Assembly: GCF_003443535.1 (NCBI RefSeq)
Contig: NZ_CP031946.1
Span: 3,486,001 to 3,550,000, forward strand
DNA: 64,000 bases
Direction: 5' to 3'
DNA from: Ruegeria sp. AD91A
GTDB taxonomy: Bacteria; Pseudomonadota; Alphaproteobacteria; Rhodobacterales; Rhodobacteraceae
Of this stretch, positions 12,683-50,298 are shown one piece after another. Position 1 is the first letter of the stretch, and every line of letters starts with the position of its first letter. The notes beneath the pieces are model-generated. The model had not been told where the DNA came from, searched no databases, and saw only the letters and a list, made by a program, of their open reading frames with translations. Made by a program: the position numbers and the translations under genes.

Positions 12683-14971
12683 ATGAACAAGGCAATCACT
12701 GACGGCATCGTTTTCATGCCGCCTCAATTCGCGAATGGCCTGACCGTATGGTCTGCGGGGGACGGAACGCCGGGCTCACCCACATATGGTGGATCCGGCA
12801 CCGGGGTTTTCGTGCCTGCGGATGCCAATTTTGGTGGCTGCCTGGAGATTCTGAAAATCCAAACCACCCAACAGCTTCGATACATGGGCCAGACACCGAT
12901 TTTGCCCGGTTGCTATTTGCAGATCAAGGCGCGGGTCAAGGCGATCAGCGGACCATTGCCGTCGGTGCGTATTGCGGCCTGGGCTGGGGGTGCGGGCGAC
13001 GCGCATGTGGCGGGTGTCGTGGAGCAGGGGCCTGCAACACAGTTGTCGGGCTATGGGGCCGTGCATGAAGTAACGGCGATTGTCGGAACCGGCCAGCGCC
13101 CGGGCGTGGACATGCCTTGGGGGCTTGCCGCCCTGTATGGCCATTTTGGTCTGGATATTGAGGGCTTGAACGGAGCGCTGGTGCGCGTCGACGACCTGGA
13201 GATCACGGATGTCACCGGTGTCTTCCTGCGCGAAATGATCAGTGTTGTGGATGTACGGGATTATGGTGCCATCGGCGACGGTGTGACGGACGACTCGGCT
13301 GCGTTTGAAGCGGCCGATCAGGCGGCGGGTGGCCGACGGGTTTACGTTCCGCAAGGGACCTATCATCTGGCTGAAAACACCAGTATGACGTCCGAGATGG
13401 ACTTTGAAGGAACAGTCACCATGCCGGATGACAAGATGTTGTTGCTGACAAAGGATTTCCATCTGCCTGCTTACATTTCGGCCTTCGGAGACGAAGAATT
13501 GGCGTTCAAAAAAGCGTTTCAGGCTCTTTTGAACAATTCGGATCATGACTCACTCGATTTGGGCGGGCGTAAGATTTCTGTCACCGCTCCGATCGACATG
13601 GCGACAGCGGTTCCCAACAAGCAGAGCGGGTTTTCGACCCGTCGTGTGATCCGGAACGGTCAGTTTGACGTCAAAAGCAGTTCAGCGTGGGATACTGAAA
13701 CGTTCACATCAACTGCGACTTACGATCCGTCGGACAATACGCGTCTGACCAATGTTGCAAATGTCGCCAACATTCCTGTTGGGTCCTACGTTGCGGGCAG
13801 CGGCGTCGGGCGTGAGATCTATGTGCGGTCAAAGAATGTCGGGGCTGGTGAAATCACACTGAGCGCGCCTCTTGTGGGGGCGTCGGGGACCCAGTCTTTC
13901 ACATTCTACTCATTCAAGTACCTGCTGGATTTCAGCGGCTTCAGCAAACTTCGGAAGTTCGGAATGGAGCAGATCGAGTTTCAGTGCAACAGCCGATGTA
14001 GCGGAATTCGTCTGGCGGCCGCTGGCAGCACCTTTTCGTTGAAAGACTGTCATGTCAGTCGCCCGAAAGACCGGGGGATGACGTCGACCGGAACGGGGTG
14101 CAAGGGCATGCTGATCGACAATTGTCAGTTCCTTTCGGCAGAAGAATCTTTTGTTGTAACGGATCGATATTCCATCGGATTGAACACCAATTCAAACGAT
14201 GTGAAGCTGCGCCACAACCGCGCGGTGCGTTTCAGGCATTTCGCTGTTCTGGGCGGCGACAACAATATGGTTCTGGGCAACCATGTCTTTCAGGGCGATA
14301 GCATCCCGCAAGGTGTGCGTACTGCCGGGCTGATCATGATCGGCACCTACAATAGTTCCACCATCGCGGAGAATTATGTCGACAACTGTTTCATCGAATG
14401 GACGAATGAACGAGACCCGTCGCCGACATACACCAGTGGCTTTTCTTTCAGTGCAATGAGCATTACGGACAATATATTTTATTCCAGTCAAGCGCCGTCC
14501 TGGTTCAGTTTCATCGTTATTCGCCCTTATGGGCCCGGGCATTTTCTCAATGGCCTGGTGGTGACCGGTAACAAGTTTCGTGCCACGAGCGGTGACATTT
14601 TTCGAGCGGAACAGGTGGATACATCCCTCGCCGACTTGAACAAAGACAGGCATACGAACGTGACTTTCCAGAATAATACCTACCATGGCGTAACCAGGAA
14701 AACCGCAAACCCATTGAGGGTTCGCCATACGCAAAGCTCGGTGTCCAATCTTTGGCCTGTCTCGGCCAACGGACAGTTGCCTTTCGACGGTAAGGCACGA
14801 AGCTGCGATGGGGTTGCGACAATCGGTGTGCTCTCAGGGGTGTTCAACAACCACGTCTTCAGCGCTCCTCATGTTGAGGTCGAACAGGGGGCGACAGGCG
14901 ACAGTTTTCTGTTGCGTTGGCCAGAGCATGTGAAGGGTACGGCCTCTGTTCTGATGCGCATGGAACGTTAA
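12683..14971 (+). CDS. Large right-handed beta-helix protein (pectate-lyase/GH28-related fold)
   Basis: A 762-residue protein. I start at ATG 12683 (MNKAITDGIVFMPPQF), preceded by AAAGGG. Residues about 1-190 form a beta-rich N-terminal module; then comes VVDVRDYGAIGDGVTDDSAAFEAA, the hallmark of the pectate-lyase-3/phage-tailspike N-capping segment, followed by a long helix region with repeated N/G-rich turns. No signal peptide is seen, so it may be exported by another route or act as a surface or tailspike-like polysaccharide-binding protein. No catalytic residues can be assigned. Confidence 0.75.
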   Translation: MNKAITDGIVFMPPQFANGLTVWSAGDGTPGSPTYGGSGTGVFVPADANFGGCLEILKIQTTQQLRYMGQTPILPGCYLQIKARVKAISGPLPSVRIAAWAGGAGDAHVAGVVEQGPATQLSGYGAVHEVTAIVGTGQRPGVDMPWGLAALYGHFGLDIEGLNGALVRVDDLEITDVTGVFLREMISVVDVRDYGAIGDGVTDDSAAFEAADQAAGGRRVYVPQGTYHLAENTSMTSEMDFEGTVTMPDDKMLLLTKDFHLPAYISAFGDEELAFKKAFQALLNNSDHDSLDLGGRKISVTAPIDMATAVPNKQSGFSTRRVIRNGQFDVKSSSAWDTETFTSTATYDPSDNTRLTNVANVANIPVGSYVAGSGVGREIYVRSKNVGAGEITLSAPLVGASGTQSFTFYSFKYLLDFSGFSKLRKFGMEQIEFQCNSRCSGIRLAAAGSTFSLKDCHVSRPKDRGMTSTGTGCKGMLIDNCQFLSAEESFVVTDRYSIGLNTNSNDVKLRHNRAVRFRHFAVLGGDNNMVLGNHVFQGDSIPQGVRTAGLIMIGTYNSSTIAENYVDNCFIEWTNERDPSPTYTSGFSFSAMSITDNIFYSSQAPSWFSFIVIRPYGPGHFLNGLVVTGNKFRATSGDIFRAEQVDTSLADLNKDRHTNVTFQNNTYHGVTRKTANPLRVRHTQSSVSNLWPVSANGQLPFDGKARSCDGVATIGVLSGVFNNHVFSAPHVEVEQGATGDSFLLRWPEHVKGTASVLMRMER

Positions 14972-14979
14972 GAGACCGG

Positions 14980-15005
14980 ATGGCCACCCCGAGCCGGGTG
15001 GCCAT
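14980..15005 (+). terminator. Stem-loop terminator after the beta-helix gene
   Basis: ATGGCCACCC (14980-14989) pairs perfectly with GGGTGGCCAT (14996-15005) around a six-base loop, eight bases after the stop codon. The following T-run is short (TTTC), so termination may be partial. Confidence 0.6.
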
Positions 15006-15114
15006 TTCACTCTGATTTGACCGGTAATGACAGACCCGGTTTGCGAAGCTTGCAGGAAATAGGCGACGTTTGATTTTGATGTGTTAGGCTTGGGCCAGGA
15101 AGTGGAGAATCCCG

Positions 15115-15441
15115 ATGCTGAAAATTGCCAAAAACGCGAGTGTTCAAACAGTTATCACGACCTTTGAGATGACACCTGGCACGTGTCAGGACCTTTTGGA
15201 GGCCTTGACGGACGCCTATTCCGAGTTCATTTCGAAGCAGCCAGGTTTCGTTTCCGCCGGGCTGCACGTCAATGATGCACAAACCCGGATCGCAAACTAC
15301 TCGCAATGGGAACGCCGCGAAGATTTCCTTGCTATGCTGCGCACACCTGAAATGCGTGATCGCAACCGCAAGATCAACGAGCTATGCAAGAGCTTTGAGC
15401 CGGTCATGTACGATGTCGCTGAAACATTTGGCAGTTCCTGA
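15115..15441 (+). CDS. Antibiotic-biosynthesis-monooxygenase (ABM) domain protein
   Basis: A 108-residue dimeric ferredoxin-like ABM domain: VQTVITTFEMTPGTCQDLLEAL, QPGFVSAGLHVN, IANYSQWERREDFLAML. Proteins of this fold include cofactor-free monooxygenases and heme-degrading enzymes, but single-domain members are mostly of unknown function. GTGGAGAATCCC precedes the ATG. Nothing in the neighbours points to a specific substrate. Confidence 0.75.
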   Translation: MLKIAKNASVQTVITTFEMTPGTCQDLLEALTDAYSEFISKQPGFVSAGLHVNDAQTRIANYSQWERREDFLAMLRTPEMRDRNRKINELCKSFEPVMYDVAETFGSS

Positions 15442-15506
15442 CCTGAATCAAAGCCTGTGCTTCATATCTGTTTCAAAGTGAGCCTGCAAAAATGGAGGCT
15501 CACACT

Positions 15507-15914
15507 ATGTATCACAACATTCTGGTCCCCATCTCGTTCGATGCTGAAAGAGATACGTCCGGGCCCTTGAAGCTTGCCCAGATTCTGGCCACGCCAGACG
15601 CCAAAGTGACATTGTTGCATGTGGTCGAGCATATTCCCAACTATGCGATCTCTTACATGCCGTCCGAATACCTGACAGAAGCACGGAAAGCGATTCAGGC
15701 AGAACTGGATGAACTGGCATCTCAACTGACGAATGCCAAGGGTTTGGTGATTGAAGGACATTCCGGCCGAACCATTCTGGATTGGGCCGAGGCGAACAAA
15801 CCCGATCTGATCATAATGGCGTCGCACCGGCCGGGGATGCAGGATCTGCTGCTGGGCTCAACCGCATCGCATGTCGTGCGTCATGCGGGTTGTGCCGTGC
15901 ATGTGGTTCGCTGA
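15507..15914 (+). CDS. Universal stress protein (UspA family)
   Basis: A 135-residue Usp domain. The ATG at 15507 (MYHNILVPISFD) is chosen because GGAGG lies nine bases upstream; the in-frame ATG at 15492 would be too long. The C-terminal nucleotide-binding stretch IIMASHRPGMQDLLLGSTAS matches the G-(x)-G-(x9)-G-S/T loop only loosely, so ATP binding is likely but not certain. Usp proteins help cells survive stress and stationary phase. Confidence 0.88.
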   Translation: MYHNILVPISFDAERDTSGPLKLAQILATPDAKVTLLHVVEHIPNYAISYMPSEYLTEARKAIQAELDELASQLTNAKGLVIEGHSGRTILDWAEANKPDLIIMASHRPGMQDLLLGSTASHVVRHAGCAVHVVR

Positions 15915-15917
15915 TGG

Positions 15918-16400
15918 CTAGAAATCCTGAGCGGTAAGGCGAAAAGCCTTGCCAAATCCGGCGTTCAAAAGGCCGTCCTGAATGGTAAACCGCACCAGTC
16001 CGAAATCAGCGAAATCTATGTAGAGTTTCGCCTTGGGTCGCTTGGCCAGATACCGGTCTCGCAAGGCGCTATAGCCTGCCATGCCCCGGTGAACAGGCTG
16101 AGCGATCACGTGCAGTGTCAGGCGCGGATGGGTCAGCGGGTCGCCCTTGTCTGCGGGCTCTCCGATCAGAAGGGCGCAATTGGGACAGGCGCTCAACGCA
16201 CGCGTATGTTCCGCAAGGGTGGAGATCAGCGAGACAGGGCAACCTGCTTCATCCGTGGTCAACGCGATCCGGGAGAGTGACGGCAAGCCCGTGTCAGGGC
16301 GCAGAAAGGCTAGCGCGGCAAATGGAGCTTGAAAGAGAAGATCCTGCGCTTGCAAGCGCACCGCTTTGTCGGGCGTCTGATAAGGATTGGATTCAGTCAC
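15918..16400 (-). CDS. Pyridoxamine-5'-phosphate-oxidase-like FMN-binding protein (HugZ type)
   Basis: A 160-residue split-barrel protein. ALAFLRPDTGLPSLSRIALTTDEAGCPVSLISTLAEHTRALSACP in overlapping pieces is the FMN-binding split-barrel pattern of the HugZ/heme-utilisation and PNPOx-like group, and ALLIGEPADKGDPLTHPRLTL follows. It lacks the longer C-terminal domain of true HugZ, so heme degradation is only a possibility. It converges on the usp gene with a three-base gap. Confidence 0.75.
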   Translation of the reverse strand: MTESNPYQTPDKAVRLQAQDLLFQAPFAALAFLRPDTGLPSLSRIALTTDEAGCPVSLISTLAEHTRALSACPNCALLIGEPADKGDPLTHPRLTLHVIAQPVHRGMAGYSALRDRYLAKRPKAKLYIDFADFGLVRFTIQDGLLNAGFGKAFRLTAQDF

Positions 16401-40259: not shown

Positions 40260-40320
<61 letters not shown>

Positions 40321-40657: not shown

Positions 40658-41689
40658 CTATACACCGAGGCGGAACTTGGTCGGTGTCATTCCGGTTTGC
40701 CCTCGGAAAAAGCGAGTGAAATGGGACTTGTCGGAATAGCCGAGCATCAGACCAATCTCCGCAATTGTCATCTGGTCTTCTTTGAGGTGCTCTTTGGCGA
40801 CATCGACACGCAGCCGTTTTATTTCGCGGGGTAGCGTTGTGCCTTGTTGCTGAAGCGCTTTCAGAAACCTCTCCTGCTGTATTCCCAGCAATCCCGCCAC
40901 CACATTTGGCCCCAAATCGGTTTCATCCAGTTTGTCGCGTAAGACAGAGCGCAAAGCTGCCACCACGGTTACTTCTTCCTCTTGTTTAGGTGAGGCTATG
41001 GGCTTGGCAGAGCCCTCAGAGACATGGTGCAAAAACAACCACCCCACAGGAAAACTAATTTGCATTCCGGGATCGGTTCCCAGGCCAACTTCGATCCCTT
41101 TGTAGTCGATAGGCAAACCATTGATGTATCTGCTTTCCCACCGCACACGCGAAGAGTCCCAGGAATCGCCGACGACGGTCTGCAATAGGCGTACATAGAT
41201 TGCGGCACCAAAACCGGTCACCTGAATGGGCGGGACAGTAGGTTCCTGTTGCCTCTCGATACGATAAGTCGCTTTGTCTGCTTCAATGACGAGGCTGTGC
41301 CGCACAGAATTGGACTCCTGCGGTACGAGCTCAACAAAGCGAGTGAAAAACTCGAATAGCGTTTTTGTAGATTGCAAGGCTTGAGCGAAGGGCGGCCATC
41401 CTTGTAGGTCAAACGCTTCCCCTACATTCAGTCCTAGGTATCGATCCCCTGATACTTCTGAGAAGGCATTCACTAAACCGTAGACCAGCTCTGAGTGAAC
41501 GAACACAGATGGGTCAGACAACAGTTCAGCTTTCAAGCCGACCTGATCCAATGCTGGTTGCGGATTGATTTTACGTCCGGTGAGATATTGCAGAAACGGA
41601 GCTGCTAAGGAGAGGCGAATAAAGCCCTCGCTATGCTCTTGAGAGGTGGAGTTGAAAGGCAAGCTCGTCACCCTAGTGATGATTAGCAA
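40658..41689 (-). CDS. AraC-family transcriptional regulator
   Basis: A regulator of about 343 residues: an N-terminal arabinose-binding-like domain of the OruR/ArgR type and a C-terminal HTH_18 domain, with MTIAEIGLMLGYSDKSHFTRFFRGQ in pieces and TPTKFRLGV at the end. The frame opens at TTG 41689; a GTG at 41671 is an alternative and no clear ribosome-binding site is visible. It is transcribed away from the amidohydrolase gene, so it probably controls the island cargo. Confidence 0.85.
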   Translation of the reverse strand: MLIITRVTSLPFNSTSQEHSEGFIRLSLAAPFLQYLTGRKINPQPALDQVGLKAELLSDPSVFVHSELVYGLVNAFSEVSGDRYLGLNVGEAFDLQGWPPFAQALQSTKTLFEFFTRFVELVPQESNSVRHSLVIEADKATYRIERQQEPTVPPIQVTGFGAAIYVRLLQTVVGDSWDSSRVRWESRYINGLPIDYKGIEVGLGTDPGMQISFPVGWLFLHHVSEGSAKPIASPKQEEEVTVVAALRSVLRDKLDETDLGPNVVAGLLGIQQERFLKALQQQGTTLPREIKRLRVDVAKEHLKEDQMTIAEIGLMLGYSDKSHFTRFFRGQTGMTPTKFRLGV

Positions 41690-41804
41690 TTTTATTCAGT
41701 GGCCATTTTTACAATCACATTCGAACATTTTAATTCAGAAGTGGCAACCGAGACAAAACTTTCCGGACTACAGTTGGCAAAACATGAATATGAAGGGAGT
41801 GCTT

Positions 41805-43211
41805 ATGTCCGGCTTGAAAGTATCGACTGTCGCAGCAGCTTTTGTTGCGGCTTCCTTATCCTTTACGACGCCGTCGCAGGCTCAGGAACAGACGCCTCGG
41901 CAGGTTCTATTTAGTAACGTGAACATCTTCAACGGCGTAGACGGAGAACTCGTCGAAAACGGTTCGGTGCTGGTTGAAGGCAATCTGATAAAGGCCGTTT
42001 CTGCGGACCCAATCGAAGCTCCCGATGCTTTTGTGGTTGATGGAGAAGGCCGCACCTTGATGCCCGGCTTGATCGACATGCATTCGCACCTTTGCTTGCG
42101 CGACGGTATTCCTTGGGCTCGCACCGACTACGACCAGATGCTTGCGGGTGCCTATACGTCTCTTGTCTTAATCGACTACCTCGATCAGGGTTTTACAACG
42201 ACACGCGACACTGGATGCAATGTGCTTGGCGTCGCTAAGGGTGTAAACAATGGCGTTATTCCCGGCCCTCGCATTTATCCTAGTGGTGGCGTCATCAGTC
42301 AAACCGGTGGGCATGGTGACATCGGCTTTTTCAATGACTTGCCGGGCACGGTGGATGACCTTGAAAAACACGGTTGGTCTTACATCGCGGATGGTGTGAC
42401 CGAGGCGCGACGCGCGGCGCGGCACAATTTTCGAGGCGGTGCCACGCAGATTAAGGTGATGGCCGGGGGCGGTGTCGCCAGTGAGTTCGATCCACTTCAT
42501 ATGACGCAAATGTCCGTGGAAGAAATGGAAGCCATCGTTGAAGTCGCGCGAGACTACGGCAGCTATGTGACTGTTCATGCTTATCACGACCGTTCCGTCA
42601 ACCGGGCCATCGATGCCGGAGTACGGACAATCGAACACAATTTTCTTGTGTCCGAGGAAACCATAATTCGAATGGCGAATGAGGGTGTTGCTTTGTCGGC
42701 TCAAGCGGTCATGTCGTTGGAGGCTTTCGCAGACCCAGAAAGTATCACCTTCTTTTCTGCTGATCAGAAAAACAAAGCGCGTGCTGTGAATGCTGGCGCG
42801 AAGCAAATGTTTGAATGGGCGTTGAAGCATAATGTGCTTATCGTCACAGGCGGCGACATGTTTGGTCCTGATGTTGGCCGTCAGGCAGAAAACCTAATTT
42901 GGTTCAATAAAATCGCCAACAACAACCTGCTTACGTTGCAAACGGCCACTTCAAATGCAGCTGAAGTTCTTAGCTGGAGTGGTGAGATGAGCAAACATAA
43001 GGACGGTCCGCTGGGCGTAATCCAAGAAGGCGCTTACGCTGACATTATCCTGGTGAATGGCAATCCGCTGGAAGATCTTGACGCGGTTCTGCGAGATAAC
43101 GTCGACTTCGTTATGAAGGATGGTCTCGTTTATAAGAACTGGCTGCCGACCGAAAACGCACCCGAGTTCCAGCCAATCAATCCGAATCGAAACGCCTATT
43201 TGTCCCGATAG
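41805..43211 (+). CDS. Secreted amidohydrolase (imidazolonepropionase/prolidase-like)
   Basis: A 468-residue periplasmic metal hydrolase. ATG 41805 with GGGAG six bases before gives a signal peptide (MSGLKVSTVAAAFVAASL, cut after SQA). Metal motifs: DMHSHLCLRD (HxH), TQIKVMAGGGVAS (carbamylated Lys), VHAYHDRS, RTIEHNFLVS and VTGGDMFGPD (Asp). This subfamily includes Xaa-Pro dipeptidases and ochratoxin-type amidases. First gene of the island cargo; the substrate is probably an amide or peptide, not identified. Confidence 0.87.
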   Translation: MSGLKVSTVAAAFVAASLSFTTPSQAQEQTPRQVLFSNVNIFNGVDGELVENGSVLVEGNLIKAVSADPIEAPDAFVVDGEGRTLMPGLIDMHSHLCLRDGIPWARTDYDQMLAGAYTSLVLIDYLDQGFTTTRDTGCNVLGVAKGVNNGVIPGPRIYPSGGVISQTGGHGDIGFFNDLPGTVDDLEKHGWSYIADGVTEARRAARHNFRGGATQIKVMAGGGVASEFDPLHMTQMSVEEMEAIVEVARDYGSYVTVHAYHDRSVNRAIDAGVRTIEHNFLVSEETIIRMANEGVALSAQAVMSLEAFADPESITFFSADQKNKARAVNAGAKQMFEWALKHNVLIVTGGDMFGPDVGRQAENLIWFNKIANNNLLTLQTATSNAAEVLSWSGEMSKHKDGPLGVIQEGAYADIILVNGNPLEDLDAVLRDNVDFVMKDGLVYKNWLPTENAPEFQPINPNRNAYLSR

Positions 43212-43285: not shown

Positions 43286-44035
43286 ATGAGAATATTGATT
43301 GCGGCTATTGCGTTGATATGGGTTGCTGGAACGGTTGATGCGGGAGCCAATCTCGATTGGGCTGATTTGCCAGATCCATCCGTGCAGGTCTTTGAAGACC
43401 CCTATCGCGATCTCAAACCTGAACAGTTCGACGATGTCCTCTACGCCGTAAGACTACGCGGCAGGTTGCAGCAGGACGGTGGCAGCGAAGAAGAGAGACA
43501 AAAATGGCAAGCGCGTTTGACCGAGACTGAGGATGCCTTGGCAGCTGATGGAATTGATGTCGACTGGCTACTCGATCAGCGAGAGGTTGTGACGGAACGT
43601 CGAAGAGAGGCTGGGACGAACGGAAATCGACAATTCGACGGTCAAACAATCACACTCGCAGGCTTTGCCATTCCTGCTCCGAGTGACCCGGACGGTCGGC
43701 CTGTGGCGTATTTGGTGCCAGAAAGAGGGATGTGCAGTCACATGCCTCCACCTCCGCCCAACCAGATGATACGTGTGCGGTTGAATGGGGACTGGACGCC
43801 CAGCTATTTCCACGAACCCGTTCGGCTGACCGGCAAGCTGACTATCGATCCTTCTGTTCAGAATATGATGGTTGTGGATGGCCTCATGCCGATGAACGCG
43901 ACATTCCAGTTGGAGACGGAACGTGTCGAATCTCTGGAAACCGAAGCAGACAGGCTGGAATGGAAGCAGCGTGCCGCTGATCGCATCCGGGCGGCGGGAG
44001 ATCGCAAGGCAGGCGGGGCAATGGCGTCTGAATGA
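43286..44035 (+). CDS. Secreted DUF3299 protein
   Basis: A 249-residue protein with a signal peptide (MRILIAAIALIWVAGTVDA) and a C-terminal DUF3299 domain: ITLAGFAIPAPSDPDG, YLVPERGMCSHMPPPPPNQMI and VRLTGKLTIDP. The GxCxHxPPPPPNQ motif is typical and may bind a metal. Found in many marine proteobacteria near transporters; function not known. Its stop overlaps the porin start (ATGA), so the two are coupled. Confidence 0.78.
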   Translation: MRILIAAIALIWVAGTVDAGANLDWADLPDPSVQVFEDPYRDLKPEQFDDVLYAVRLRGRLQQDGGSEEERQKWQARLTETEDALAADGIDVDWLLDQREVVTERRREAGTNGNRQFDGQTITLAGFAIPAPSDPDGRPVAYLVPERGMCSHMPPPPPNQMIRVRLNGDWTPSYFHEPVRLTGKLTIDPSVQNMMVVDGLMPMNATFQLETERVESLETEADRLEWKQRAADRIRAAGDRKAGGAMASE

Positions 44036-45210
44036 TAAAACTTCTGGTTGCCGCATCGAGCATTGCCTTCGCTGGCGCAGCGTCGGCTCAGGGACTATCC
44101 GGGCCATCTTCGGTCGAGGCTGATCTAGAGCCCGGAGATGGGCTGACCGACCCACAATATCGTTCCGATTTTCCTCGCAATATCGCACCGGGTTGGTTTC
44201 AGTGGAAAGACCGGCTGGCCGAGGAAGGATTTCGCTTCAATATTGACTACTTGGCATTGGGCCAATCCACGAATGCTGATCTGGGAACCGGCGAGGCGGC
44301 CAGCGGAATTGCGCGTTTCTACGGCAGTTGGCAGGCAACTGAACGCGGCTCTTTGACATTCAAGATCGAAGACCGGCACAGTTACACCGATGTTGCCCCA
44401 CAGTTTCTTGGGCTGGATGGCGGAGCACTTTCGATCACTGGGACAGCCTTCAACGATAATGGTTTGCTGCTGACCAACCTGTTCTGGACCCAAAGGGCCG
44501 AGAACGGCGCGTGGACGCTGCAAGTTGGGCAGATTGATGTAACGGACTTTGTGGATATCTATGGGTTGGTCAGCCCTTACAGTGGTTTCCAAAACCTGTC
44601 TTTCAATACCAACCCGACAATTAACACGCCCAACCAAGGTCTTGGTATTGCCGGTGGGGTAAAGCTGAGCGAGAACCTCTACGCCGTTGCGAGCGTGTCA
44701 GACGCAAACGCCGACCCGTCCGATCCAAACTTTGATGTGTTTAGCGACGGCAATCTCTTCAAGTCACTCGAGCTAGGTTACACTTCCGGCTTTGATCGCA
44801 TCTACTTCGACAATATCCATCTGACCCTCTGGCATGCGGATGCGGCTGACGATGGCAGTCGAGCGGAGGATTACGGCGCTGCGTTCTCTGCCGCATGGTT
44901 TGTTGACAATAAATGGATGCCGTTCTTTCGGGCTGGGGCCTCAAAGGGGACCGCAGCGCTTTATGACCGGTCCGTATCTGCAGGTCTGGGCTACTATGGT
45001 CGCAATACCGATTTGGCCGGGTTGGGCCTGAACTGGGCCGAGGCAAGAGGCATAGACGGTGACCAATTCACGCTCGAAGCATTCTACCGGTTTTCAATCT
45101 CGCCCGGACTGCAGATCACGCCATCACTGCAGTTCATTTCTGATCCGCTGCTGAACCCCACTCAGGATAGCATTACGCTGTTCGGTCTAAGAACCCGGAT
45201 CGTTTTCTGA
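44032..45210 (+). CDS. Outer-membrane porin, OprB-like
   Basis: A 392-residue beta-barrel with a signal peptide ending ASA. It shows FRFNIDYLALGQSTNAD, a long series of alternating hydrophobic strands such as GSLTFKIEDRHSYTD, an AYxxYGLVSPYSGFQNLSF-type region and the final phenylalanine (LRTRIVF) needed for outer-membrane insertion. OprB proteins pass carbohydrates; here the neighbours suggest uptake of an amide or peptide-like nutrient. Confidence 0.85.
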   Translation: MIKLLVAASSIAFAGAASAQGLSGPSSVEADLEPGDGLTDPQYRSDFPRNIAPGWFQWKDRLAEEGFRFNIDYLALGQSTNADLGTGEAASGIARFYGSWQATERGSLTFKIEDRHSYTDVAPQFLGLDGGALSITGTAFNDNGLLLTNLFWTQRAENGAWTLQVGQIDVTDFVDIYGLVSPYSGFQNLSFNTNPTINTPNQGLGIAGGVKLSENLYAVASVSDANADPSDPNFDVFSDGNLFKSLELGYTSGFDRIYFDNIHLTLWHADAADDGSRAEDYGAAFSAAWFVDNKWMPFFRAGASKGTAALYDRSVSAGLGYYGRNTDLAGLGLNWAEARGIDGDQFTLEAFYRFSISPGLQITPSLQFISDPLLNPTQDSITLFGLRTRIVF

Positions 45211-45260: not shown

Positions 45261-46502
45261 ATGAAGACCCTGTTGGCCGCATGCGCCATAGCGATCAATT
45301 TTGGTGGCGCACTACACGCCGGCGAGGAAAGCAAGACTTGGGATGGGTCAGAAGAGGCGAAGCAATTCGTGCAAGACACAATCGTCCTCGGCATGTTGGC
45401 CAGCCCCTACGGCACTGGTTGGACCGACTACGACCAGCTTCATATCTACTTCGCGCGGGCTCGGGACAACGGCATTACGGGACACGAGATGACGCTGGCA
45501 GCTGCGGATATGTCGTTTGAAACCCTGCTAGAGCAGCACTATCACTTTCGCTCAGCCATGGCGCAACAACCGGAAAACTACCTGATCGTCAATGAAACCC
45601 GAGATATCGAAGCCGCCCACATCCAAGGCAAGACAGCCGTCATCTGGAACAGCCAAACTGCCACAATCCTGAATGGCGATCTTAAGAAAATGGCATTGCT
45701 AAAGGATATGGGGATCAAAAGTATGATCCTGGCATACAATGATTTTTTTCGAACCGGATCGGGGCAGTTGGCGGCCTATAACGGGCGCGACATTGGTCTT
45801 ACGCCTTGGGGGAAGTCGGTCATCGATGAAATGGTGCGGTTCGGCATCCTGCTAGACCTAAGCCACACGGGCTCCAAAACGGCCAACGACGCCATGGACT
45901 ACATGGATGAAAACTATCCCGGCGTGCCATATGTCTATACGCACTCTGTCCCAGCTGGGCTTTATGCGAACGAACCCAATGCCACGACACGCGGTTGTTA
46001 TCGGGCCATTCCCGACGACGAGGCGCTGCGTGCAGCCAAATCGGGCGGCTATATTTCTCCGACCTTCACCGAATGGATGATGGACGGTGTTTGGCCCGAG
46101 GATATCTCACCCGAGCAAGCTGCTGATATGATCGACTACTATGTCCAACTTGTGGGGGTCGACCATGTTGGGATCGCGACAGACGACATGTTCTCGACTG
46201 AACTAGTCGTACAGTTCGCAACTGCAAACGCAAGCATGTACGACGACGGCGGCTACATGATCGATGCGTTCAACAAAGGGGCCACTGGCAACGGTGAACT
46301 TGCCAAAATCCTTGCGGCGATTACCGATGACCTTTGGGCGAGGGGTTATTCCAATGAGGACCTTGCGAAGATTTATGGCGGTAACAAGATGCGAGTTTAT
46401 GCGCAAGTTTGGGAGGGCAAACCGACCGAACTATTTCTGAAAGAGTACCCCGAGCGTCTGCGCCTAAGGCAAGAGCTTCGTGATGGGTTCTATTCGCGTT
46501 AG
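45261..46502 (+). CDS. Secreted membrane-dipeptidase-like (M19) hydrolase
   Basis: A 413-residue protein with a signal peptide ([20 protein letters not shown]) and an M19 renal-dipeptidase domain: [30 protein letters not shown] and [14 protein letters not shown]. The usual N-terminal HxD zinc pair of M19 (in DGHNDL) is not apparent; residues near 40-60 read [17 protein letters not shown] instead. The metal site may therefore differ. GGGAGG precedes the ATG. Last gene of the cargo operon, probably acting on a dipeptide or D-amino-acid amide. Confidence 0.85.
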
Positions 46503-46554
46503 ATTATTGGGGGCTTACCGAAAGAAGACAGATTACTTCCCGCACGGGCGAGGC

Positions 46555-47034
46555 TTACGCCCCGCCCTTTGCTAGGTTGTCCCGCTTCCAAAGAGGTTGC
46601 AGGTTGCTGTAGTGGCAAAGTTCGATGAGGTGTTCCAAAGACCGTGCAGCTGAGAGAGGGGTAATATGGTCCACCTCCCATTTACCATACCGATCCCATG
46701 TCATGCCGTCTGTGAAGCGTGCCTCTATGTACCGCTTTAAGGCCGCATGCGAGCAACCGACTGCCCGAGACGGGCTGGCCTCGCCCCTCAATATCTGACC
46801 TGACCGGTTCTGTACTGACCTGAACATACGGTAAGATGGATCGATTGCTCGACACCTCCGATCCCGCTCGACCGTGTTCTCAGCGTTGCACTGAACGCAC
46901 TGGCGATTGCTGACGTAGCGCTCAGCCAGGTGCCCAAACTTGCACGGACGAACCGTCCAGAAACGAGAAAGGCCGCGCAGGGCGGCCTCCTTACGAGTGA
47001 GGAACGTCGGTTCCGATGCTATGTCAAACGGCAT
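46555..47034 (-). CDS. Phage-type HNH endonuclease
   Basis: A 159-residue protein with an N-terminal zinc-like CKFGH...CVQC pair and a C-terminal HNH motif: TWDRYGKWEVDHITPLSAARS, then HYSNLQPLWKRDNLAKGG. This arrangement is common in HNH proteins of phages and satellites. Its ATG overlaps the stop of the ATPase gene (TAATG), so they are translated together. The role could be homing, packaging-related nicking or recombination. Confidence 0.82.
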   Translation of the reverse strand: MPFDIASEPTFLTRKEAALRGLSRFWTVRPCKFGHLAERYVSNRQCVQCNAENTVERDRRCRAIDPSYRMFRSVQNRSGQILRGEASPSRAVGCSHAALKRYIEARFTDGMTWDRYGKWEVDHITPLSAARSLEHLIELCHYSNLQPLWKRDNLAKGGA

Positions 47035-48545
47035 TATGCTGCTGCCGCCACCTGACGACCCTCCAACCGGGAAAGCAACTCATTCTGCCTATGCCCTTTG
47101 GCACAAACCTGTCCACTATTGACCTCACCGGATAGCAGCCAGTTCAGCAGTAGGTTCCGCATTCTCTGAGATGGCATGTAGAGCGTTACACGATGCCTTG
47201 GCGTGTAGGCGCGCCCCGCACCGTTAAGGCCTCCGACACGTATTGCGGATCGGAACAGCCACTGCACCAGTTCGGTCAACGCATAGGCGTCAGAGAACCT
47301 TTGAGCTTCGTTGCTGTCGCGTTTCATGCCAAGGAACGTGAGAAGTTGTGGATTGGGGTTTTGGTCATATAGGTACACCGCTGTGGTGCACCCTATGTGG
47401 GCATTGGTCCCACGTGTGGTGTTGGGTACGAAGCTAACACCGTCTGTGGTCCACATTGCATCAAAGACCTCAGTGTCCTTGTTGTACACCTCTTCTTTCA
47501 AGGCGCGCCCGAACATGCGCGTATGCCTTGAGAGCCTACCTGCCTTTGGCTTTTGTCCGGTCTCAGCGTCATGCCACAGGCGGCGTGCACACGTCAGCAT
47601 GACCGTTTTGGGGTCTACGCCATACAGTTCTCTTGCTTTGAACTTGCGTAGCTTGTGACCAATCGAGGAGCACTGCGAGTGCGTTTTGATCGTCTTTAGC
47701 TGAGCGCAGTGTGTCCACTTTTGGTTCTTTAGTTCCGGTATGGGTAATACCGTCAGCGCGTTAGCAACATCTTCTCGCCACGCTGCCTCGACTTCTTTAT
47801 CCAGACGCTGCACATCCAAAGTGAAGGAGCCGGGATGCTCTTTCTGCAGTTTTTGCAGGTACTGCAGCAGCACCGATCCTTCCGAAAGGTACGTGTAAAT
47901 CGTCACGGACTTGGGCTTGAGCAAGAGTTCTTTGGGAATGGCGAGGACGAACAGCTTCTCGCTTATGCGATACAGTGCACCCGACTTGGCTTTGTCATAG
48001 AGGGATCGGTCAAAAGTCTTGTTCCCTTTTCGGTATAGTTCATCCCACATTTCCGTTGGAACAATTCGACCGTCAGGCTCCTCTTTTGCCATGCCAAGGC
48101 CTAGGTAAGCTGTGTCAAAGTCAACCTTTCGGACTGTTTGGTCCACCTCGAAGGGATTTACGACCTCGTCGATGATGAGGTTGTATCCACTAAGTAAGTG
48201 ATCGACTTCGATGGTTGGTTTGCCGTCGCTGTCGAACTCAGTACATCTCGCAACGCCGGTACTCTGGGTCGCCAGAGTTCCGAGCCGGTAGAATAGTTGA
48301 TGAGTACAAGCAATTGACTTACCCGCCCGGATCAACTTTTCGCAGTGATCGCGTTTGTTGCCGCCGTTGCAAATAGGCTGTGTCAGAATGAAATCGGAAC
48401 CCGTTCGGGCACCATTGATGAACCGTTCCACCTCACTTAGATACGGAACAACGGCTATGTATTTTTCCGGCTTCTTGAAGTTGCGGTTGATTTCTGTGGA
48501 TTTGCCATACCCACAAGGTTTGTCGACAATAGTGATGTGGGGCAT
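47034..48545 (-). CDS. P-loop ATPase, helicase-like protein of phage type
   Basis: A 503-residue protein. The N-terminus has a Walker A-like DKPCGYGKST and, near residue 125, LIIDEVVNP as Walker B, as in SF2/DEAD-like phage ATPases. The rest, with YSGEVNSGQVCAKGHRQ near the end, matches no family I can name. AGGAGG precedes the ATG, and a 15-base palindrome overlaps its leader. Next to an origin-like repeat block and upstream of the HNH gene, it probably drives element replication. This is inference. Confidence 0.65.
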   Translation of the reverse strand: MPHITIVDKPCGYGKSTEINRNFKKPEKYIAVVPYLSEVERFINGARTGSDFILTQPICNGGNKRDHCEKLIRAGKSIACTHQLFYRLGTLATQSTGVARCTEFDSDGKPTIEVDHLLSGYNLIIDEVVNPFEVDQTVRKVDFDTAYLGLGMAKEEPDGRIVPTEMWDELYRKGNKTFDRSLYDKAKSGALYRISEKLFVLAIPKELLLKPKSVTIYTYLSEGSVLLQYLQKLQKEHPGSFTLDVQRLDKEVEAAWREDVANALTVLPIPELKNQKWTHCAQLKTIKTHSQCSSIGHKLRKFKARELYGVDPKTVMLTCARRLWHDAETGQKPKAGRLSRHTRMFGRALKEEVYNKDTEVFDAMWTTDGVSFVPNTTRGTNAHIGCTTAVYLYDQNPNPQLLTFLGMKRDSNEAQRFSDAYALTELVQWLFRSAIRVGGLNGAGRAYTPRHRVTLYMPSQRMRNLLLNWLLSGEVNSGQVCAKGHRQNELLSRLEGRQVAAAA

Positions 48546-48561
48546 TCAAACCTCCTGTGTT

Positions 48562-48576
48562 TGGTCCATTGGACCA
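48562..48576. promoter_or_regulatory. Palindromic operator candidate before the ATPase gene
   Basis: TGGTCCATTGGACCA is a perfect 7+1+7 inverted repeat 17 bases upstream of the ATPase start, overlapping its leader. It has the size of a phage-repressor operator. No repressor gene is obvious in the island. Confidence 0.5.
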
Positions 48577-48671
48577 GTTTGGGGAATGTGCTCTGTTGGA
48601 TACCGAGCAAATGGAATTGCCCCGTTGGGGCGACTGGGAGGAAATCCCGGTGAACACGCAATGGATAAACT

Positions 48672-48695
48672 AGAGGGATCAAAAGCCCTCTTTTT
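48672..48695 (+). terminator. Intrinsic terminator on the plus strand
   Basis: AGAGGG (48672-48677) pairs with CCCTCT (48686-48691) around an eight-base loop and is followed by TTTT. It would stop a short plus-strand transcript starting near the operator. Confidence 0.65.
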
Positions 48696-48834
48696 AGTAC
48701 CTTTGCTTACAGGTCATCGTGATTTAGTGTTTATTTACTTATGCTTACTTGCTACTTACTCCACTCGCATTGGAGTAAAGGAAGGCCAAGTCGTCTAAGT
48801 GACCCGATCAACAATGACCAAGCGAAACCTGTAT

Positions 48835-48941
48835 GCTCAACTGAGGGAGGGGTTTTGCTCGAATGAGGCAGTGGTAACGCTTGTTAGTTCACAAAACGGA
48901 GGGTTAGCGCCTGTGTGTTCACAAGAGGAAGGGTTAATGCC
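48835..48941. repeat. Four iteron-like 25-base repeats
   Basis: Units begin at 48835, 48857, 48887 and 48917. The last two match at 20 of 25 positions (GTTCACAAAACGGAGGGTTA type), and the earlier two are more divergent (16 of 25 each). Units 2-4 are spaced at exactly 30 bases. All share the core GAGG-AGGGTTA. An AT-rich stretch and a hairpin lie just upstream, a layout of replication origins. Confidence 0.5.
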
Positions 48942-49084
48942 ATTTCCAAATGTGTGCGGGACAGAAAGCCAGCCACGGACAGCCAAAAAGATCGGGGAGC
49001 GGCGTTGTCGCTTGATATGGAGTAGGGTGGTCAAAAACTGACGCATCGAGAGACTACGACCACCCTGCACAGCATCACGCCGAT

Positions 49085-50092
49085 TTACGCATGTTCGACG
49101 GCTGCCAACTTTGCCACGATGTCATTGGTCTGCAGGTGGGTGTAACGCATCAGCATCCGCAAATCCCGATGTCCGCTGATCATTTGGACTTGCGCCAACG
49201 ATAATCCGCTTTCCACAAAGCGGGACACCGCCTCGTGTCGAATGTCATGAAATGTAAGGTCTACCACGCCTGCCCGGTGCCTGAGGCGCTCAAAGGCTAA
49301 TCGCACAGAATTACCAGACAGGGGCAAACACCGGTCGTTCCCGCGTGGCAGGTCCATCAAAACGGCAACGGCATTCGGGCTGAGAGGCACTGTACGGGCG
49401 CGACCGTTTTTGGTTTGGGGCAAGAACACTGTCCGACGCTCAAGGTCTACATGCTTCCATTGTATCGACAGCAATTCCCCTCGGCGCATCCCGGTCGCCA
49501 AAGCAAGCGTCAGCAATGGCCTCATCAGCGGAGACCGAGCTTGGTTCACTGCACCCAACAAAGCCTGCCATTCTCCTTCATGCAATCGCCTCTCGCGGCG
49601 GTTATCAATCTTTGGTCTTCGGACAGGCTTGACCGGGTTTCCTTGTGGCAGGTTCTGCCCCCAATCCTCACAGGCGACATCAAGGGCGTGCTGCAACCAA
49701 CCCAGTTCCCTCACCACAGTCGCCGCCTTCATGGATTTAATGCGCTGGTCACGATAGTGGGTAAAGTCAGCGGATCGCAGCTTGCCGACCTTCCTGCTGG
49801 CTAACTTGGAGCATTTACGCAGGAACCCGTTGATTGCATAACTTTCATTGTCCGCGCACCGTTTCTCGCTCGTGATGTAATCTCGGTATTTTCGCAACAC
49901 TTCACCAAGTGTCATCTCGGATGCGTTCACACTGAGGTCTGGGGTTAGCAATCCCCTGTCGGCGCTCAACTCCGTCTCACGAGCCCACTTAGTCGCATCA
50001 GCACGCTTTAGAAATGACTTGGATCGGGATTGCCCGTCCTTCCGAACCGTCGCCTGCCACTTTCCACTAGGCCGTTTTACGATTGTTGGCAT
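49085..50092 (-). CDS. Tyrosine-type site-specific integrase
   Basis: A 335-residue tyrosine recombinase that inserts the island at tRNA-Val. The start is ATG 50092 (MPTIVKRPSGKWQATV) with AGGAG upstream. The N-terminal arm domain and SAM-like core precede the catalytic set: TGMRRGELLSIQW (Arg), HDIRHEAVSRF (His, Arg), ISGHRDLRMLMRYTH (His, Tyr). It lies 127 bases from the repeat and the intact tRNA, the usual position for such integrases. The leader AACACAGGAG is shared with that of the ATPase gene. Confidence 0.93.
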   Translation of the reverse strand: MPTIVKRPSGKWQATVRKDGQSRSKSFLKRADATKWARETELSADRGLLTPDLSVNASEMTLGEVLRKYRDYITSEKRCADNESYAINGFLRKCSKLASRKVGKLRSADFTHYRDQRIKSMKAATVVRELGWLQHALDVACEDWGQNLPQGNPVKPVRRPKIDNRRERRLHEGEWQALLGAVNQARSPLMRPLLTLALATGMRRGELLSIQWKHVDLERRTVFLPQTKNGRARTVPLSPNAVAVLMDLPRGNDRCLPLSGNSVRLAFERLRHRAGVVDLTFHDIRHEAVSRFVESGLSLAQVQMISGHRDLRMLMRYTHLQTNDIVAKLAAVEHA

Positions 50093-50218
50093 GGCCCATA
50101 TCTCCTGTGTTGGAGACATCTTTTCTGTCTAAGTGCAGCGGAGGCGCAGCGGACACAGTTTCATGCGCAGCACAGCAAAAGGTGCTAGTCGCGTAAGACC
50201 TTGATACAATGTGGGGAA

Positions 50219-50298
<80 letters not shown>

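Follow-up and report, generated by a model that had tools for sequence, protein, structure and literature searches.

A tRNA-Val-integrated element of Ruegeria with a helicase-type backbone, exchangeable cargo and a probable helper-dependent mode of transfer

We analysed a 64,000-nt stretch of the genome of Ruegeria sp. AD91A (NZ_CP031946.1, positions 3,486,001-3,550,000; "the window", to which all coordinates below refer unless a locus is named) and found that the tRNA-Val(tac) gene of this marine bacterium is occupied by a 9,959-bp insertion. This ~10-kb insertion is probably a horizontally transferred integrative element, in which a replicating backbone is combined with exchangeable cargo, and which relies on a helper, likeliest a phage, for its transfer. 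Reading from the tRNA gene, it consists of a tyrosine integrase gene, an origin-like region, and genes for a helicase-like ATPase and an HNH endonuclease, followed by genes for an M19 dipeptidase, an OprB porin, a DUF3299 protein, an amidohydrolase and an AraC-type regulator. Homologues of the ATPase occur in phages, on plasmids and in other small islands. Loci and genomes used for comparison are designated by L and G numbers.

The insertion at tRNA-Val(tac) and its backbone

The borders of the element are formed by a direct repeat, the two copies of which are identical at 61/61 bases. The distal attachment (att) copy lies at 40260-40320, at the left border, and the other copy, at 50219-50279, overlaps the tRNA-Val(tac) gene (50223-50298, minus strand), which contains most of it. 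In two genomes of the same genus the site is empty: the window flanks joined at the repeat (620 + 821 bases) aligned across the junction with locus L190 at 82.7% identity over 699 columns and with L193 at 78.3% over 701, continuing for 75-79 bases beyond the junction and picking up again farther along in unchanged order. The insertion has therefore both a direct repeat of part of the tRNA gene at its two ends and an empty counterpart elsewhere, as expected of integration into a tRNA gene. A first-pass annotation, made from the sequence, had described a module of integrase, repeats, ATPase and HNH gene at 47034..50092; this module proved real, and the border repeat, of which that annotation made no use, delimits the larger unit to which it belongs. 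That annotation had also reported no capsid or conjugation genes, and we likewise found no capsid, terminase or relaxase family among the eight gene open reading frames (ORFs) between the att copies by Pfam, in the ATPase, HNH protein and integrase by PHROGs, or by Pfam in six small ORFs (four in the origin gap or across the ATPase edge, two at or near the distal att copy). With no structural gene matched between the att copies by Pfam or PHROGs, a full prophage was ruled out.

The integrase (344 aa; 49085..50119, minus strand; PF00589 Phage_integrase, E 1.4e-31) is 93-96% identical in four other loci, L002, L003, L004 and L006. The gap between its gene and the ATPase gene contains four tandem iteron-like repeats (48827..48938, minus strand) with a spacing of 22-30 bp. 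Their best self-match, 39/60 at a lag of 30 nt, was reached by 0/300 dinucleotide shuffles (mean 27, maximum 31), and likewise by 0/300 in each of the four other loci (thus in five with the window), one of which, L006, has one extra repeat unit (five). Beside the repeats lies an origin-like AT-rich 40-mer (48719..48758; 72.5% AT, and 65% in L004), and just 3' of the integrase stop an inverted repeat (49010..49080; arms 49010-49032 and 49058-49080) whose 23-nt arms are 74% complementary, and which is possibly the terminator of the integrase gene. All three features, noted already at first pass, could be located. Judged by their sequence, the tandem repeats match what is expected of iterons and are putative binding sites.

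The ATPase (503 aa; 47034..48545, minus strand) belongs by sequence to the phrog_2467 family of phage proteins (E 2.9e-30), and its relatives carry PF27199. No solved structure is related to it by sequence, and fold searches placed it in the SF2-helicase fold alongside DinG and XPD, with CasDinG as the top row among the matches listed. Two RecA-like domains are present, and the residues invariant in our alignment A1 are G14 K15, D126 E127, and Q428 R432 R436, which we take to be the Walker A, Walker B and C-terminal arginine motifs of SF2 helicases. The earlier description of this protein as helicase-like was thus borne out, and, because of the helicase fold, the outcome named there as adverse, a non-replicative enzyme, was not what we found.

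The ATPase stop and the HNH start share 1 nt, and the same overlap is kept in L002, L003, L004, L006 and L014 (in the last of which the ATPase is truncated), in agreement with the translational coupling proposed earlier. The HNH protein (46555..47034, minus strand) is endonuclease VII-like (phrog_1035, E 9.5e-11). It was found by blastp in 6/28 ATPase loci, in Ruegeria and Roseovarius, and gave no support to the packaging-related role first assigned to it. A conserved tail after the HNH stop (46521..46554, minus strand), common to the window, L002, L003, L004 and L006, marks the end of the backbone; beyond it, the cargo differs among these five.

Transfer of the backbone and its fusion with a metabolic operon

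Synonymous divergence (dS) of the backbone between the window and L002, L003, L004 and L006 was 0.08-0.52. For flanking core genes (ModB and ModC, plus LacI for L004, L182 and L183) it was 1.08-3.23, values above about 1 being saturated. As the backbone dS is far below that of the core genes, the backbone moved between these species after their split; it has been transferred horizontally between species of the genus. The ratio of nonsynonymous to synonymous divergence (dN/dS) of the three backbone genes was 0.09-0.24 where computable (the integrase comparison with L014 lies outside the set that gave this range), and the backbone is under purifying selection. At the same tRNA-Val site the backbone carries CHAT and HARE-HTH genes in L002, and IrrE-like and HTH genes in L004. 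The trio of integrase, ATPase and HNH genes thus occurs with different cargo in other genomes, as the first-pass annotation had anticipated, and it does so outside prophages, so that the finding which that annotation held to be damaging, a trio confined to full prophages, was not obtained.

Degraded copies also occur: in L018 the integrase and ATPase genes are partly deleted, L182 and G447 retain integrase remnants, and the integrase gene of L192 is split. Such copies would fit a relic, that is, integrase and ATPase leftovers beside a resident metabolic operon that are no longer mobile. For the window we regard this as very improbable, as all three backbone genes are open, the att copies are identical, the dN/dS values are low, and dS indicates transfer.

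The cargo of the window comprises genes for an M19 membrane dipeptidase (45261..46502, plus strand; PF01244, E 8.2e-45), an OprB-type porin (44032..45210, plus; PF04966, E 3.7e-18), a DUF3299 protein (43286..44035, plus; PF11736, E 1.7e-15), an amidohydrolase (41754..43211, plus, the ORF opening at 41646; PF01979, E 5.4e-36) and an AraC-type regulator (40658..41689, minus; PF12833, E 3.4e-16). This operon, counted by OprB alone and not as a whole, was present at a minimum of 85% identity (at least) in 35/54 genomes of the genus, and in 37/54 at E 1e-40; 27 of the 35 had no ATPase match. In L183 it lies by itself, with tRNA-Val on one side, LacI on the other and a distal att copy that has decayed; in L002, L186/L187, L188 and L192 an att copy parts it from the tRNA-adjacent element, and in the L004 genome it is on another contig. 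A satellite family intrinsically equipped with metabolic genes, as first envisaged, is not what these loci show: the operon occurs in 35/54 genomes, and L002 and L183 have it as a unit of its own, flanked by att copies.

The junction of HNH tail and M19 stop lies at an identical place in the window, L003 and L006. This shared junction points to one fusion and suggests that the operon was joined to the backbone in a single event. The operon dS in the fused loci L003 and L006 was 0.20-0.56, near the backbone values, and 0.70-2.27 in L002, where the operon is a separate unit (the M19 gene in L003, which is split, and the amidohydrolase gene are omitted from the dS table). The amidohydrolase is 95-97% identical to those of L002 and L182, and 38-44% identical to those of L003, L006, L015, L018, L183, L186, L188 and L192; judged by these identities, it has been swapped.

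Two other arrangements were seen at this site. In L192 (7568-11510) and L194 (4139-7349), a different operon, read by eye as ATP-grasp, alpha-E, transglutaminase and proteasome-type protease genes, adjoins integrase remnants at this tRNA gene. In contig C1 of G435, a distance of 2.3 Mb separates the best att copy from OprB, partial att copies and LacI (about 413 kb versus 2.705-2.711 Mb), such as a large inversion by way of the att site would leave.

Helicase islands in distant bacteria

Homologues of the ATPase were found in 55/50,697 phage records, on 28/72,556 plasmids and in 49 loci on genome contigs. Its own genus had it in 10/54 genomes, a sample of the family in 6/394 and, by profile, a sample of the order in 14/390. 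The phage homologues that cover most of the query are 21-26% identical to it and form a family without assigned function, and the match of a homologue on an Acinetobacter plasmid, which also has genes for a phage capsid and portal, spans 56% of the query. A helicase homologue is likewise encoded by two circular Macrococcoides plasmids, 10.5 and 11.9 kb in size (L224, NZ_CP046366.1; L225, NZ_CP079982.1); they are typed as non-mobilizable, their records show no replicon type, and their HTH protein matches phrog_1835 (E 2.5e-39 and 2.9e-37) and, weakly, replication-initiation families.

A pair of tRNA repeats surrounds the ATPase gene in 10/28 loci (L005, L008, L009, L010, L015, L019, L026, L029, L031 and L036), the repeats being about 6.7-15.5 kb apart; the homologues in these ten islands, from Alphaproteobacteria and Bacillota, are 24-68% identical. 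In L026 the repeated part is the 5' part of the tRNA. The remaining 18 loci have no such pair, ten of them for lack of any recognised tRNA gene. Repeats of at least 17 nt were associated with 11/18 tRNA genes (two of the 11 from L031), as against 87/8,400 random segments. The two ends of the Wenxinia contig L031 (1-11343) are near-identical copies of tRNA-Leu at a distance of 11,254 bp. This contig may be the element as such, either excised or collapsed during assembly, and its borders may be an assembly effect. All ten tRNA-repeat islands encode a tyrosine integrase by our own profile, nine seeds of which were picked by eye from those loci. Among the 49 loci, 36 had a tyrosine integrase and 15 a serine recombinase, counts obtained with our own profiles and no background control; of the seeds, nine of the ten for the integrase and all seven for the recombinase were picked by eye from the same loci.

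Defence-type cargo was recognised by Pfam or PADLOC in 5/10 of the tRNA-repeat islands, with the cargo of three (L005, L009 and L029) left unassigned. The tRNA-Gly island of Litoreibacter, L010, encodes a type I-C retron RT-Toprim protein (14293-16083; PADLOC, E 6.9e-220), L019 a SIR2 protein with NB-ARC/TPR, L031 type I-like methylase and specificity genes, L036 Old-like and GmrSD proteins, and L008 a BamHI-like endonuclease and methylase. L015 has DUF1254/DUF1214 genes in place of defence genes, and two proteins of L026 gave nothing clear by Pfam or PADLOC. A PHROG scan was run on two sets of proteins. The first, 73 proteins of 12 tRNA-site elements, was drawn from 91 ORFs by removing 12 ATPases, six serine recombinases and two small ORFs of L031 and adding two other small ORFs; the second consisted of 72 out of 122 ORFs in seven loci that lack a tRNA repeat. 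No structural family was among the 25 of 82 (first set) and 25 of 125 (second set) families listed.

The frequency of defence-type genes in these islands, and their presence in L002, raise the question of whether the ATPase and HNH proteins are themselves a two-gene anti-phage defence module, the integrase being the only mobility machinery. A helicase-like protein encoded in one operon with an HNH nuclease on a small island, and the rank of CasDinG in the fold search, fit such a module. We nevertheless consider it quite unlikely, since at E 0.01 PADLOC matched neither protein to any family, phages and plasmids carry homologues of the ATPase, the ATPase occurs without this HNH protein in 22/28 loci, and iteron-like repeats lie upstream of its gene.

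More tentatively, and with somewhat less than even confidence, we propose that these islands belong to an undescribed cross-phylum family of small tRNA-integrated replicons, satellites or similar hitchers, whose defining feature would be a single SF2 helicase (phrog_2467/PF27199) that also occurs in phages, phage-plasmids and small plasmids, and which would carry exchangeable, often defence-type cargo; in Ruegeria such a replicon would have captured, and would spread, a nutrient-use operon. No prior description of such islands was found in the openly licensed literature searched.

Helpers, transfer and relation to known elements

A capsid-encoding element of about 17-18 kb uses the same tRNA-Val site in G420, where it extends over L184 (8130-18001) and L185 (1-7887). 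In this genome it encodes TerL, a Terminase_4 TerS and a protease-capsid fusion (Pfam), as well as a 541-aa integrase recognised by eye, and it resembles a capsid-forming phage-inducible chromosomal island or a small prophage. L189 of G403 (2260 onward) looks alike by eye. We infer transfer by a phage ahead of other routes because the helicase is common to phages and to a plasmid with phage genes, and because the capsid-encoding element uses the same tRNA site (L184/L185, and L189 by eye).

The integrase would excise the element as a circle, the replication of which would be driven by the ATPase acting at the repeats and the AT-rich stretch, while the HNH nuclease would resolve branched or concatemeric DNA. 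A helper, most likely a phage, would then bring the DNA to new cells, as for minimalist satellites, so that by analogy the element would work like a minimalist satellite or hitcher. The metabolic operon would originally have been an att-flanked unit next to the element at this tRNA gene and would have turned into cargo through loss of the att copy between the two; after this fusion, both parts may have moved together.

Several results weigh against this interpretation. G420 has the integrase (96%) without the ATPase, and the M19 gene is split in L003. Operon dS is low in loci without the ATPase too (L182, 0.24-0.51; L183, 0.40), as seen with OprB (0.51 and 0.40, respectively); the operon therefore spreads without the backbone as well, and its travelling as one with the backbone is possible only. 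In the regions upstream of 25 distant ATPases, tandem repeats never rose above the control maximum of their own locus, the closest cases being L008 (3.2 versus 3.5) and L045 (2.6 versus 2.8); iterons as a family-wide trait were thus rejected, and tandem iterons are established for the Ruegeria elements only. None of the 80 IMG/VR relatives of the ATPase that were kept, of 134 found with two peptide patterns, reaches 40% identity. No packaging gene is conserved across the helicase islands: there is a single weak TerS-like match in L019 (13341-13589; E 0.0022), with no relative among the small ORFs of 15 other loci, and a single head-scaffold-like match in L029 (13107-13682; E 1.7e-5), and no other candidate for a dedicated packaging gene emerged. 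In the element's own genome, a search for resident helpers by Phage_portal and Terminase_6N gave one match each, side by side and far from the element (G000 C1:674249-677618), perhaps in a gene transfer agent cluster.

Downstream of the distant ATPases, windows of six loci (L011, L013, L019, L024, L029 and L042) exceeded the control maximum; these self-similar stretches, which lie in the 700 bases that begin 1,210 bases from the ATPase start, are perhaps repeats in another arrangement or coding sequence.

The absence of a conserved packaging gene also favours an integrative mobilizable element (IME), which would excise and replicate, and be moved by a conjugative helper through an unrecognised origin of transfer (oriT). 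Tandem accretion at one gene, including att-flanked units without an integrase, is described for IMEs and cis-mobilizable elements (PMC5704250), and such units are present in L002, L183, L186 and L188. However, no relaxase family was matched in the scanned ORFs by Pfam or PHROGs (oriT was not searched for), the ATPase has homologues encoded by phages and by a plasmid that carries phage genes, and a capsid-encoding element occupies the same tRNA site in G420. We therefore hold an IME to be unlikely, if less so than a defence module.

The comparison with known satellites bears on phage-mediated transfer. No gene for packaging or capsid remodelling (terS, sid, ppi or an own capsid), as is characteristic of satellites, was found in the scanned ORFs. 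Phage-inducible chromosomal minimalist islands (PICMIs) of Vibrionaceae, marine elements with a 6,110-bp prototype, few genes for excision and replication, and defence cargo, are described as being without terS, sid and ppi homologues (PMC10803314), so a packaging gene is not obligatory for satellites. The Ruegeria element shares with them the marine host, the small size, the few excision and replication genes, and the lack of these homologues. However, the PICMI model, as described, requires int, alpA and primase, with fis as the hallmark site (PMC10803314), whereas the Ruegeria element lies at tRNA-Val(tac), has an SF2-fold ATPase and an HNH protein instead, and gave no AlpA or primase match in its eight gene ORFs and six small ORFs, other small ORFs being outside the scan. 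By its gene content, it is not a PICMI.

Tycheposons are described as cargo-bearing elements of 4-200 kb that sit at tRNA genes and encode a tyrosine recombinase together with nutrient genes (PMC10872708). With its tRNA border, tyrosine recombinase, cargo and size, the Ruegeria element fits this loose description (by description, not by descent of the recombinase), in which no ATPase/iteron backbone comparable to that of the Ruegeria element is named. The islands I23, I44 and I55 (PMC12595487) are similar in having a tyrosine integrase, direct repeats, defence cargo and no recognised genes for autonomous transfer. They differ, according to that account, in carrying AlpA, in inserting at tmRNA, and in that transfer was seen by experiment (for I55), one of them being transduced by a jumbo phage; the Ruegeria element is known from its sequence.

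The label "phage satellite" is plausible for the Ruegeria element. Of the satellite layout proposed at first pass, the integrating module stood as a unit complete in itself, with origin-like region and helicase-like ATPase, and the packaging gene gained no support; nor did virion-type data, suggested there as a place to find the trio, yield a close relative in IMG/VR by ATPase, HNH or integrase, except for one integrase match, L205, which is the provirus locus of G420 once more.

The conserved helicase may serve as a search handle for small islands that may escape definitions based on AlpA, primase, terS or capsid genes, and the islands that carry it span bacteria as distant as Ruegeria and Paenibacillus. 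The origin/helicase pair is directly testable, and the Ruegeria element is an actual example of mobile machinery at a tRNA gene to which a nutrient-use operon has been joined.

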